A stretch of DNA of 64,000 nt from Dokdonella sp. (lineage in GTDB: Bacteria > Pseudomonadota > Gammaproteobacteria > Xanthomonadales > Rhodanobacteraceae): the NCBI GenBank assembly GCA_024707225.1, contig JANQAE010000001.1:1302001-1366000 (forward strand), given 5' to 3'. The notes beneath the pieces were generated by a model, which did not search any database, was not told the DNA's origin, and saw only the letters and a program-made list of their open reading frames with translations. Positions 58,557 to 63,551 of the stretch are shown piece after piece. Position 1 is the first letter of the stretch. Each line of letters begins with the position of its first letter. The position numbers and the translations under genes are program-made.

Positions 58557-59847
58557 TCAGGCCAGCAGACGCTCGCGCAGGGCCTCGTACGAGGCGGCCA
58601 ACGGGTCCGCCGCGCCGGACGCGCCAGCAGCTCGGCCAGCGCCGGCGGCGGTTCGACACGACCGACCAGCGGCTCGACGATCCGCTCGAACTTGGCCGGA
58701 TGCGCGGTCGCGACGACCGCGTAGTCGCCGCGGTCGCCGGCCGCGCGCAGGCGCTCGAGCACCGCGACCGCGCAGGCCGTATGCGGGCAGACCACGATGC
58801 CGCGCCGTGCTGCCGTCGCGGCGATCGTCGCTCGAATCTCGGCGTCCTCGACGCTCTGCGCGGTGACCGCCTCGCGCAGCCGCATCGGATTCGGATACAG
58901 CCAGACCAGCCGCTCGACATTGCTCGGTGCGCCGACGTCCATCGCATTGGCGAGCGTCGCGACGCTCGTGCGCGGCGCGTAGTCGGCACCCGCGAGGAAA
59001 TCGGCGAGCACGCGATTGGCATTGTTCGCGAGCACGACCGGACCGAGCGGCAGGCCGATCGCGCGGACCAGGATCGCCGCCAGCGCATTGCCGAGGTTGC
59101 CGGTCGGTACGATCAGGCCGAGCGGCCGCGCGCGTGAGCGCCCATGCTCGAGTGCGGCCGCCGCGTAATAGGCCATCTGCGGCAGCAGCCGGCCGAGGCT
59201 GATGCTGTTGGCCGAGGACAGCAGGCAGCGCTCGCGCAGGACCGCATCGGCCAGTGCCTGCTTCACGAGGCGCTGGCAGTCGTCGAAGCTGCCGGCCACA
59301 CGCAGCGCCAGCACGTTGTCGCCGAAGCAGCCGAGCTGGTGCGCCTGCCGCGGCGACACGCGGCCGTCCGGATAGAGGATCACGACGCGAAAGCCGGGCC
59401 GCCGGTGAAACGCCGCGGCGACGACCGCGCACCGGTGTCCCCGGAGGTCGCGACCAGGATCGTCAGCGTCGGATCGGACGGCGCGCGCAGGCGCGCCAGG
59501 CACTCGGCGAGAAAGCGTGCACCGAAGTCCTTGAACGCCGCGGTCGGCCCGTGAAACAGCTCGAGCAGCCGGCTGGACTCGTCGCCGAACGGCACCAGCG
59601 GCGCCGCGAAGTCGAACGCGTTCGCGCAGATCGAGGCGAGCGCGTCGTGCAGCGGATCACCGGCGAAGAACGGCCGCAGCAGCCGCTCGGCGACGGCCGG
59701 CAGCGTCGCCAGGCCGTCGAAGTCCGCCGCGCTCAGCCGCGGCAGCGCTGCCGGCACGTAGAGTCCGCCGTCGGGCGCGAGCCCGGCGCGCAGCGCAGCA
59801 CCGATCGAGACGGCGGGTGCGCCGCCACGCGTGGAGACATAGTTCAT
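58557..59847 (-). CDS. thrC: Threonine synthase (two frameshifts)
   Basis: About 430 residues after repair, the family length. PLP-Lys region [30 protein letters not shown] and [12 protein letters not shown]. Missing bases near 59427 (joins VATSGDTGA to [12 protein letters not shown]) and near 58612 (joins ELLARPA to [15 protein letters not shown]). Converts O-phosphohomoserine to threonine. ATG 59847 overlaps the thrB stop. Confidence 0.94.
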
Positions 59848-60802
59848 GGCGTGACCTGCACTGCCGGAGGGGGCTGGGCGGATCGACGAGGTGCGCGGCC
59901 GGACCGGCCACCGGCGTCACGTAGCGGCGGCTGGCCAGCCCGGCGTCGGCGAACGCGGCCTGCATCGCCTGCGCACCGGCCTCGGCCCCGGCGCGGCTCT
60001 CGAACCAGCCGAACACGCTTGGGCCGGCGCCGGAGATGCTGGCACCGAGCGCACCGGCATCGAGCGCGGCGGCCTTGACCGCGGCGAAACCGGCGATCAG
60101 CGGCGCGCGGCGCGGCTCGACCAGCACGTCGCGCAGGCCGGCGCGGACCAGATCCGCGTCGCCGCGCCAGCAGCCGGCCAGCACCAGCGCCAGATGCGCG
60201 CTCTGCTGTACGAAGTCGCCGAGCGCGTAGTCGCCGCGCAGCGCTTCACGCGCACGTCGCGTCTCGAGCACCGCATCGGGATGCACGACCGCCGCATGCC
60301 AGGCCGCCGGCACCGGCACCGGCACCAGGCGATCCTCGGTCGCCAGCACCAGGCCGCCGAGCAGCATCGGACCGATGTTGTCGCCGTGACGGCCGCCGCT
60401 GGCCGCGGCCTCGCCTTCGAGCGCGAACGGATACAGCGCATGGACCGGCAGCGGCGCCGGCAGCAATGCATTGGCGGCGATCAAGGCGGCGACGCAGGAC
60501 GCCGCCGATCCGCCCATGCCCGAGCCGAGCGCGATGCCCTTGTCGAGCGCGACCTCGAAACCGAACGGCAGCGCGAGCGCGTCGCGCAGTGCGATCAGCG
60601 CGCGGCCCGCGGTATTACGCTCCGGATCGCGCGGCAGGTCGCGCACCGTGCCCTCGATCCGGCCGATGCGCACCTCCGGCGCGTCGATGCGGCGCACGCG
60701 CGCATGGTCGCCGGCGCCGGCGATGCTGTGGCCGAGGATGTCGAAACCGACCGCGACGTTGCCGACGCTGGCCGGCGCGAACGCGAGGATGCCATCGTTC
60801 AT
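59844..60802 (-). CDS. thrB: Homoserine kinase (frameshift in G5 run at 59869-59873)
   Basis: 319 residues after repair. GHMP-kinase: [20 protein letters not shown] loop [15 protein letters not shown], and [11 protein letters not shown]. One base is missing near the end (five G at 59869-59873, plus-strand reading); adding one gives a stop that overlaps thrC as ATGA. GAGG stands nine bases before ATG 60802; a GTG at 60814 overlapping thrA is an alternative. Confidence 0.93.
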
Positions 60803-60810
60803 GACGGACC

Positions 60811-63357
60811 TCACAGGCGGGCGCCGAGCGCCGCTCCGAGCCGCAGCAGATCGGCGAACACACCGGCCGCGGTCACGTCCGGCCCGGCGCCGGGCCCCTG
60901 CACGATCAGCGGATTGCTCGCGTAGCGGCGCGTCGTGAACTGCACGATGTTGTCGGTCAGGCGCAGATGCGCGAACGCATGGCTGCGCGGCAGCTCGGCC
61001 AGCTCGACGCGCGCGCCGTCGCGGCCGAGACGCGCGACATAGCGCAGCACGTTCCCGGCCGCCTCGGCGCGCGCCAGGCGCTCGGCCATCGGCGCGTCGA
61101 GCGCGCCCAGCGCCGCCGCGACGCCCTCGCGCGGCACCGCGCCGAGCACGGCCGGCACCAGGCTCTGCACCGCGACGTCGGCGAGCTCGAGCTCGCGTCC
61201 GGCCTCGCGGGCGAGGATCACCAGCTTGCGCGCGACGTCCAGGCCCGACAGATCGTCGCGCGGATCGGGCTCGGTGTAGCCGAGCGCGTGCGCCTCGGCG
61301 ACCAGCGCCGAGAACGGCTGGCTGCCGTCGTAGCGGTTGAACAGCCAGGCCAGCGTGCCCGAGAAGATGCCTTCGACCGCGATCAGCTCGTCGCCGGTGT
61401 CGAGCAGATCACGCAGCGTCTGGATGATCGGCAGGCCCGCGCCGACCGTCGCCTCGTAGCGCCAGCGCGCGCCGCCGCTGTCGGCCGCCGCGCGGATCGC
61501 CGCGTAGCGCGGCCACGGGCCGGCGCCGGCCTGCTTGTTCGGCGTGATGACGTGGATGCCGGCGGCGAGCCAGCCCGCATAGCGATCGGCGACCGCCGCG
61601 CTGGCGCTGCAGTCGACGATCACCGCATGCGGCAGATACGGCGCGTGCACGTGCGCTGTGAAGCGGTCCAGATCGGCCGCCTCGCCGTCGCCGCCGAGGC
61701 GCTCGGACCAGTCGGCCGACAGCAGGCCGCGCTCGTCGGTCCAGAGCCGCCGGCTGCTGGCGATCGCGCGCACGCGCAGGTCCAGCCGCGTTTCGCGCTG
61801 CAGGCGCTCGGCGCCCTCGCGGATCTGTTCGAGCAGCGCGCGGCCGACGTGGCCGGGCCCGATCAGGCCGACCGACAGCGTCTGCGGCGACAGCCAGAAG
61901 CCGGCGTGCGCGGCGCGCAACGCACGCGCGGCGTCGGCGCTGGTCAGCGCGACGGAGATGTTGCGCTCCGACGCGCCCTGCGCGATCGCGCGGACGTTGA
62001 CGCGGGCGCGGCCGAGCGTCGCGAACAGCCGCGCCGCGACGCCGGGCGTGCCGGCCATGCCGTCGCCGACCGCGGCCAGCACGCTGATGCCCGGCGTGAC
62101 CGTGATCGCCTGGATCTGGCCGCTGGCGAGCTCGGCCGCGAACGCGGCGGTCAGGCCGTCGCGTGCGCGCTCGACGTCGCCGGCGCGCACGACGCAGCAG
62201 ATCGAATGCTCCGAGGAGCCCTGCGAGATCATCACGACCGACACGCCGGCTTCGCGCAGCGCGGCGAATACACGCTCGGCCGTGCCGGGCACGCCGATCA
62301 TGCCGGCGCCCTCGACGTCGACGATCGCCAGATGATCGGCCAGCGACAGGCCCTTGACCGGCGCCGGCGGCGCGTCGTCGGCTCCGATCCGCGTGCCGGC
62401 ATGGTCGGGCCGGAACGTGTTGCGGATGCGGATCGGCAGGCCCAGCGCCATCGCCGGCAGCATCGTCTGCGGATGAATCACCTTGGCGCCGAAATAGGCC
62501 AGTTCGCAGGCTTCCTCGTAGGACAGCGACGCCAGCGGCACCGCCTCGGGCACCAGGCGCGGATCGGCCGACAGCACACCGTCGACGTCGGTCCAGATGT
62601 TGAGTTCCTGCGCGCCGAACAGCGCCGCGAAGATCGCGCCGGAATAGTCGCTACCGTTGCGGCCGAGCACGGTCGGCCGGCCGGCCGCATCGCGCGCGAC
62701 GAAGCCGGTCGCGACCACGCGCGTGGCCGGATGGCGCTCGCGCCAGTCGGCCAGACGTGCCGCGCTGGCCTGCCAGTCGACCGCGACGCCGAGTTCGCCG
62801 TGGCGCACGACCAGCACTTCGCGCGCGTCGAGCATCGCGCAGTCGCTGCCGTCGGCTGCCAGCAGCGCCGAGAGCAGGCGCGCCGACCAGACTTCGCCCA
62901 GTCCCTGGATCCGCTCGAGCGCCTCGCGCGCCGGAAAGCCGAGCACCGCCAGCGCCTGCAGCAGCTCGGCCAGCGCGGCCTGGCCGGTGTCGAGCCAGGC
63001 CTCGACCGGTGCCGCCGCCGCGCCGAGCAGGTCGCGCGCGGTGTGCCGGTGGCGCTCGTGCAGCGCGGCCGCCGCTTCGCGCCAGCCGGTGCCGCCGGCG
63101 GCCGCCTCGCCGGCCAGCGCGATCAGCGTATCGGTGACGCCCTGCATCGCCGAGACCACGGTGATCTGCCGGTCTTCGGGCTGCTCGCGCAGGATCGCCG
63201 CGACCGCGCGGTAGCGCGACGCATCGGCCAGCGAGGAGCCGCCGAACTTGTGGGCGACGATGCGGGCGTCGGCGGACAGGCCGGCCAGGCCGGCGCGGCG
63301 CGCTGCGGCGAGCGGATCGACGGCGGCGGGGTCGATCGAGGGGACGTGCGGTTTCAT
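60811..63357 (-). CDS. thrA: Bifunctional aspartokinase / homoserine dehydrogenase
   Basis: 848 residues. Kinase half: [17 protein letters not shown] at the N-terminus, [14 protein letters not shown]; then ACT-like regulatory repeats ([28 protein letters not shown]); dehydrogenase half: [44 protein letters not shown]. Start has GGAGG seven bases upstream. Catalyses the first and third steps of threonine synthesis and is normally feedback-inhibited by Thr. Expression is expected to be controlled by the leader at 63446-63514. Confidence 0.97.
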
Positions 63358-63445
63358 CGGGCCTCCGGTCAGGAAACCCCGCACACCGGGAGGAAGGGGA
63401 GTGCCCGCTTCCTCGTCGAGGAGCGGGACGGTCGTCGAGCGGGTG
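63358..63445 (-). promoter_or_regulatory. thr attenuator region and SD-sequestering hairpin
   Basis: Two features lie between leader peptide and thrA. The first is a hairpin at 63404-63427 (CCCGCTTCCTCG / CGAGGAGCGGG, plus-strand letters). The second is CCGGGAGG (63386-63393) with CCTCCGG (63362-63368). In the transcript CCUCCCGG can pair with CCGGAGG, which contains the thrA Shine-Dalgarno. There is no U-run for classical termination, so control may be at translation initiation. Pairing choices are my inference. Confidence 0.6.
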
Positions 63446-63514
63446 CTACGCGCGCACGACCGACCGCCCCTGCGGGGTAGTCGTCGTCGTGGTCGTGGTG
63501 CGGCGCATCAACAT
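63446..63514 (-). CDS. thrL: Threonine operon leader peptide
   Basis: 22 residues from ATG 63514 to TAG at 63446. It reads MLMRR, then eight consecutive Thr codons (ACC ACG ACC ACG ACG ACG), then ACT ACC, then PQGRSVVRA. It is too short for usual gene calling, yet sits 88 bases upstream of thrA. Eight Thr codons in a row are the hallmark of ribosome-mediated attenuation by threonyl-tRNA, as in thrL of enteric bacteria. There are no Ile codons, so isoleucine is not sensed. No ribosome site precedes it. A second ATG at 63508 is possible. Confidence 0.93.
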   Translation of the reverse strand: MLMRRTTTTTTTTPQGRSVVRA

Positions 63515-63521
63515 GGCGCCG

Positions 63522-63551
63522 AGTTGATCCGATCCGACCGGATGCTGTCAA
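63522..63551 (-). promoter_or_regulatory. Promoter of the thr operon
   Basis: A perfect -35 TTGACA (63546-63551 on the plus strand reads TGTCAA), about 18 bases, then a weak -10 (TCAACT, 63527-63522). The start of transcription would fall at or next to the thrL ATG, so thrL may be leaderless. Confidence 0.6.

Follow-up and report, generated by a model that had tools for sequence, protein, structure and literature searches.

The thr Operon and the Leader Frame

The analysed stretch of Dokdonella sp. DNA, referred to below as the window and comprising 64,000 nucleotides, carries on its minus strand the gene thrA (60811–63357), which encodes the bifunctional aspartate kinase/homoserine dehydrogenase I, as revealed by NCBIfam and Pfam profiles (NF006959, E 2.3e-299). 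It is followed by thrB, recognised by profiles of the same two collections, and the gene ubiE is located divergently from thrA on the plus strand. The thrB frame (59657–60814, minus strand) encodes 385 residues, and the homoserine kinase profile stops near residue 307; the arginine-rich tail past approximately this residue does not look in frame, and an overlap with the neighbouring gene is possible. A second region of the genome (G000:C2:33600-35888) resembles both halves of ThrA with about 37–40% identity.

A short frame of 22 codons precedes thrA on the minus strand, running from 63514 down to 63446 with a TAG stop, and reads MLMRRTTTTTTTTPQGRSVVRA, that is, MLMRR-T8-PQGRSVVRA. The ATG at 63514 was preferred over the ATG at 63508, and no Shine-Dalgarno (SD) sequence is located before it. 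The eight consecutive Thr codons, the control codons of the frame, occupy positions 63476–63499 of the minus strand and are read directly from the sequence. An earlier sequence-only reading had described this frame exactly as it was found here, leaving the strand unstated; the translation of the plus strand of 63446–63514 is unrelated to the leader peptide. The distance of 88 bases upstream of thrA given in that reading agrees with the 88 nt that lie between the leader stop and the thrA ATG (63357), and the leader of the window indeed contains no Ile codon. The search of the 22-residue peptide against Pfam and NCBIfam profiles gave no match.

The pattern of eight ACN codons in a row was matched once in the window versus 0/100 dinucleotide-preserving shuffles, and twice in the genome of 4.37 Mb. 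The same pattern read backwards had 16 genome matches. Runs of a triplet are thus not unusual in themselves, and the argument is carried by position and conservation. The Thr run is not a product of chance. The view that it represents a chance or low-complexity ACN repeat with no function, which the reversed matches favour, is extremely improbable given that the frame, its place, the promoter spacing and the downstream helices are conserved in 71 distinct loci.

Conservation and Distribution of the Leader

The thrA loci were sampled from 10 genomes of the genus, and 80 further loci came from named genomes. The exclusion of the window's duplicate and two truncated contigs from 91 loci left 88 usable ones, 78 of which possess a Thr-rich leader by the heuristic score; ten loci fell below this score (L081, L089, L096, L098, L102, L103, L104, L106, L108 and L109), including L096, where the contig begins inside the region. 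After removal of six repeated records and one identical region, the 78 passing loci make up 71 distinct ones. The assignment as a Thr leader peptide made by the sequence-only reading is supported by these short Thr-rich frames kept upstream of thrA, and the loss of the Thr run from this position in close relatives, which that reading had named as evidence against itself, was not encountered: in 67 of the 71 distinct loci the frame ends 83–103 nt before an in-frame thrA ATG. Within the genus, the thrA locus reaches upstream of the gene in nine of the ten genomes, and a comparable leader is present in all nine (9/9); in the tenth genome, the contig starts inside thrA.

The leaders vary widely in sequence and length (22–50 residues). 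They keep Thr, usually with Ile and sometimes with Met, adjoining a common ending (VRSVVRx, VRPVVFA or VRSVLPG). The earlier proposal that only threonine would be sensed thus holds for the window sequence but does not extend to most relatives, which mix Thr with Ile or, in some cases, Met. The presence of Thr codons without Ile is a minority state found in 6 of 69 leaders, and Ile appears already in a sister species (L008). In several leaders of the genus (L010, L012–L015), such as MCTMMMTTTMTTP, the Thr codons are interspersed with Met codons, and Met might therefore be sensed too.

A covariance model (R1) was built from 61 sequences, ten more of the 71 being left out by choice because of odd alignment. 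With strict filters, which lose weak matches, the model matched 78 of 250 genomes of the order, comprising 34 of 52 genomes of the window's family, 43 genomes of a second family and one of a third. In a sample of the class, five of 369 genomes were matched, and all five (5/5) belong to the window's order. Some matches are not thr leaders: among twenty weaker ones that were fetched, L151 has neither thrA nor hom as a neighbour, and L161 precedes ilvD. The latter match (L161:401-519), found in another family of the order, follows a Val-rich frame (SPVVVGVVITERQVQAA). In 15 loci from the window's family (L145–L150 and L152–L160), the thrA search matches only from residue 470–492, which corresponds to the homoserine dehydrogenase half. 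For seven of them the start of the downstream gene was read, and it opens with the homoserine dehydrogenase domain. The leader in these loci thus serves a stand-alone homoserine dehydrogenase gene.

Putative Promoter and Probable Leaderless Start

A putative −35 element, TTGACA (63546–63551, minus strand), is located upstream of the leader frame, its first T preceding the A of the leader ATG by 37 nt; the TTGAC part is conserved. The candidate −10 element, TCAACT (63522–63527, minus strand), which is separated from it by an 18-nt spacer and ends 7 nt before the leader ATG, is a poor match to TATAAT. The sequence TCCACT occupies this position in other loci, and TAAGGT in the loci with stand-alone homoserine dehydrogenase. 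The generic promoter scan reported no promoter at the leader site.

TTGAC was found in the range of 30–46 nt before the leader ATG in 69 of 71 loci. This range had helped in choosing the leader ATG, and the finding therefore consists in the narrow spread of the TTGAC–ATG distance, which is 35–38 nt in 67 of the 69 loci. The loci collected later demonstrate the same geometry (36–38 nt in 48 of 50), 11 of them sharing an identical stretch with the first set. Binding of the anti-SD sequence at −4 kcal/mol or better is predicted for 1% of leader starts; the share is 97% for thrA starts and 20% for random stretches.

The promoter would place the transcript start at the leader ATG or within a few bases of it, so that the mRNA encoding the leader peptide is probably leaderless.

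RNA Elements and Helices between the Leader and thrA

Six elements of the minus strand were delineated, beginning with element A, GGGGCGG (63464–63470; GGTGCGG in relatives), at the 3' end of the leader frame. Element B, CCGTCCCGCTCC (63420–63431; CGGCCCCGCACC in relatives), is located after the leader stop and would pair with A or C, its pairing with D having weak support. Element C, GAGGAAGCGGG (63404–63414; group motif GGATGCGGG), would pair with B or with the C-rich element C', TCCCCTTCCTC (63390–63400). Element D, GCGGGGTTTCC (63372–63382; group motif GCGGGGCCTCC), is predicted to pair through its 3' part with the SD of thrA, GGAGG plus CCC (63359–63366), which forms an 8-bp hairpin with GGGTTTCC. 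Since A lies within the frame, the common ending of the leaders reflects the RNA as much as the protein. As a point against a structured leader, the region has an unremarkable folding energy in the window (z −1.25).

The pairings were assessed by a swap test comparing the duplex energies of native partners with those of partners swapped between species, a test blind to pairs between invariant elements. In the first set of 47 sequences with less than 80% identity, natives paired better in A:B (z −5.3), B:C (−8.3), C:C' (−7.9) and D:SD (−3.5); the control pairs gave 0.0 (A:C), +1.0 (A:D), +1.9 (B:C'), −0.6 (C':SD), +2.4 (B:SD) and −0.5 (C:SD). The second set was obtained from 20 rows by dropping two that had no thrA or hom by the thrA search and one that was more than 85% identical, and comprised 17 sequences with no close copies of the first set; in 14 of these, the gene that follows is a different one. 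It gave z of −3.1 for A:B, −3.9 for B:C, −3.6 for C:C' and −3.3 for D:SD, the controls ranging from −1.1 to +0.6.

In the structure combining A:B and D:SD, 86.9% of cells are paired versus 83.9% after shuffling, and the covariation score was reached in 0/500 shuffles, as was the score for B:C combined with D:SD (0/500). The B:D pairing was weak in both sets (z −2.3 and −2.2), its covariation score being reached in 45/500 shuffles. A helix C':D, which would complete a domino chain to the SD, was rejected, natives pairing worse than swapped partners (z +2.7 and +2.6). Helices A:B and B:C, which share element B, are mutually exclusive, and coupled variation in the two sets points to both. In the window, where A is GGGGCGG and B ends with CCCGCTCC, the pairing is therefore kept with one G-U; L009, with GGAGCGG as A and the same end of B, carries a compensated change.

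The Core Shared with E. coli and the Terminator Question

Like E. coli thrL, represented in Rfam by RF00506 (Thr_leader), the frame of the window is a Thr-rich leader just before thrA. The A/B/C triple (GGTGCGG, CCGCACC and TGCGGG) recurs in the same order in the thr leader of E. coli, where GGTGCGGGC lies at the end of the leader, GCCCGCACC and GTGCGGGC come next, and a run of nine T follows. In E. coli, A:B takes the place of the antiterminator and B:C that of the terminator. Unlike the window, the E. coli leader has Ile codons, and nine T follow its hairpin. The window's group, in contrast, is characterised by a leaderless-type start, the absence of a U-tract and the extra helices C:C' and D:SD, the latter engaging the thrA SD itself. 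Besides, element A is next to the stop in E. coli, whereas in the group it begins about 22 nt before the leader stop (median of the 57 loci where the motif was found); a ribosome at the stop would therefore cover A only in part. The Rfam search of the window with E up to 10 did not reveal RF00506 and gave two chance matches of the microRNA type only. The gathering score of RF00506 is 55 bits; the E. coli control scored 122.1 bits, and the window remained below the threshold with no match. For six other thr/leu leader loci of the group searched at E 0.1, there was one sub-threshold match (L147, 29 bits).

A C:C' hairpin of −6 kcal/mol or better is predicted in all 71 loci. A U-tract was not found after it: over the 71 loci, the next 10 nt contain a mean of 0.69 T, where composition would predict about 1.56, and five T within any examined stretch of 8 nt occur in only one of the 71 loci. 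Meanwhile, the leader of leuA in the same genome (2-isopropylmalate synthase, E 7.1e-189) has a GC-rich hairpin followed by TTTTTT, and the presence of this T6 tract in a similar place means that the species does use U-tracts. The terminator scan reported no site in the window region, but this silence is weak evidence because the same scanner missed the visible leuA terminator; in the E. coli control, it found the thr site on one strand only.

These data bear on whether the leader could be an ordinary attenuator with an intrinsic terminator, as in enterics, with a terminator working without a U-tract. Such an arrangement would agree with B:C occupying the place of the E. coli terminator and having the strongest coupling of all pairs, but the depletion of T after C:C' and the T6 tract before leuA, together with the silence of the scanner for what it is worth, make it unlikely. 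Repression is probably not canonical intrinsic termination, since the U-tract is missing and the thrA SD is held in a conserved hairpin of its own. With an apparently leaderless leader in addition to the missing U-tract terminator, the mechanism probably departs in its details from that described for enterics in textbooks.

Proposed Regulation of the thr Operon

The operon is preceded by a short frame in which codons for its end product are repeated, and mutually exclusive helices predicted from the RNA extend from the 3' end of the leader to a downstream hairpin. The element is thus likely a ribosome-mediated attenuator leader of the thr operon, and attenuation through the position of the ribosome on the Thr codons is well supported by this anatomy. 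In the proposed mechanism, a shortage of charged Thr-tRNA would slow ribosomes on the Thr codons just upstream of A, and the slowed ribosome would shift the choice between A:B and B:C and, hence, determine whether C is free to pair with C'. The state with A:B (and C:C') is rather probably the starved, expressed one and the state with B:C the replete, repressed one, a direction suggested by homology with the E. coli thr attenuator, where B:C occupies the terminator place. The direction assumed at first, with the held ribosome masking A, was weakened by the same E. coli triple, in which A:B has the place of the antiterminator. As for the output, the SD hairpin may keep thrA translation low, with Rho-dependent polarity, or the helices may directly switch access to the SD.

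Folding models were used for the second possibility. In the window's own fold, the D:SD probability is 0.99 in each masking state tried; since the SD stays paired throughout, folding reveals no SD switch in the window. Across the loci, removal of the RNA 5' of B lowered the median D:SD from 0.99 to 0.06 and raised B:D to 0.66, with SD exposure increased by more than 0.1 in 29 of 71 loci and decreased in five. With explicit ribosome masks, the median D:SD was 0.35 and 0.76 in two treatments, so the size of the modelled SD switch across species depends on the setting of the ribosome mask. The simple SD switch, with A masked, fits many relatives in one treatment, does not fit the window and fits less well with explicit masks; it was retained only as a rival.

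In its full form, this translational switch supposes a default state (A:B, C:C' and D:SD) in which the thrA SD is sequestered by D, and a ribosome on the last Thr codons that masks A, leading to B:D and a freed SD. The coupled variation of D:SD in both sets, the response to removal of the RNA 5' of B and the missing U-tract are in its favour, and it is a tentative possibility, less likely than not, but the SD of the window stays paired, the B:D signal is weak, the effect is smaller with explicit masks, and the direction is opposite to the E. coli expectation, where ribosomes on early control codons leave A free.

Rho-dependent termination would operate differently: under replete conditions, B:C would leave the C-rich C' single-stranded for Rho, with the closed thrA SD barring ribosomes, and under starvation C would hide C'. 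Its direction agrees with the E. coli-like reading, C' consists of 45% C and 23% G, and no U-tract follows the hairpins. However, C' measures only about 20 nt, which is short for a Rho loading site, and the entire intergenic region has nearly the same composition (41% C, 29% G). Rho has been offered for actinobacterial Cys leaders that lack intrinsic terminators (PMC1262725), and for the present leader it can be put forward as a conceivable, somewhat doubtful output.

A broader reading embraces both outputs. Under it, the thr attenuator common to two families of the order would be leaderless and lack a terminator. Its Thr leader would govern thrA or, in some members of the window's family, a gene for homoserine dehydrogenase alone, and would act through a chain of helices ending in an SD-sequestering hairpin, the output being translation start or Rho and not intrinsic termination. 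We consider the chances of this combined reading to be about even. With the output at translation start or by Rho, the enteric-type A/B/C core would have been rewired to a different output.

Relation to Other Leader Peptides

Vitreschak et al. (2004) reportedly predicted thr attenuators in gamma-proteobacteria, which may already include Xanthomonas-type genomes. Canestrari (2020) is said to have described leaderless polycysteine short ORFs as Cys-responsive attenuators in mycobacteria. These would resemble the leader of the window in that a biosynthetic operon is preceded by a short, leaderless frame in which the sensed residue is repeated in a run, and differ in the amino acid (Cys) and in belonging to actinobacteria.

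In the trpL attenuator of Sinorhizobium meliloti, the transcript of the leader peptide begins at the ATG, which makes it a leaderless leader peptide as proposed for the window; unlike the window, it employs Trp codons, precedes trpE(G) and uses a transcription terminator (PMC7298713). The actinobacterial survey describes ileS T-boxes, which bind tRNA, with SD-sequestering hairpins instead of terminators, and reports no conserved structure for threonine operons (PMC1262725). The actinobacterial Cys leaders and ileS T-boxes resemble the window's group in being terminator-less and, for the T-boxes only, in the SD-sequestering hairpins, and differ in amino acids and RNA structures (PMC1262725).

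Taken singly, the features are already known or proposed elsewhere: leaders for Thr, leader peptides with a leaderless start, and leaders that lack terminators. The literature searches, made at the record level and with the work of Vitreschak et al. (2004) outside their scope, found no description of a leaderless and terminator-less thr leader in this order. If the proposed reading is true, E. coli reads out the three-part RNA core through a U-tract terminator, and the same core is read otherwise here, which would provide a clean comparative case for a change of attenuator output and for leaderless translation in amino-acid sensing, as well as a marker by which overlooked thr leaders of the order could readily be annotated. 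A second leaderless-type leader peptide of the window's genome, MTHRNTARLHLPIARLAPVGSLAGAALAILVLVRLITAGGAG, was noticed before leuA (L172:1375-1503, minus strand; G000:C3 near 326919-326959).
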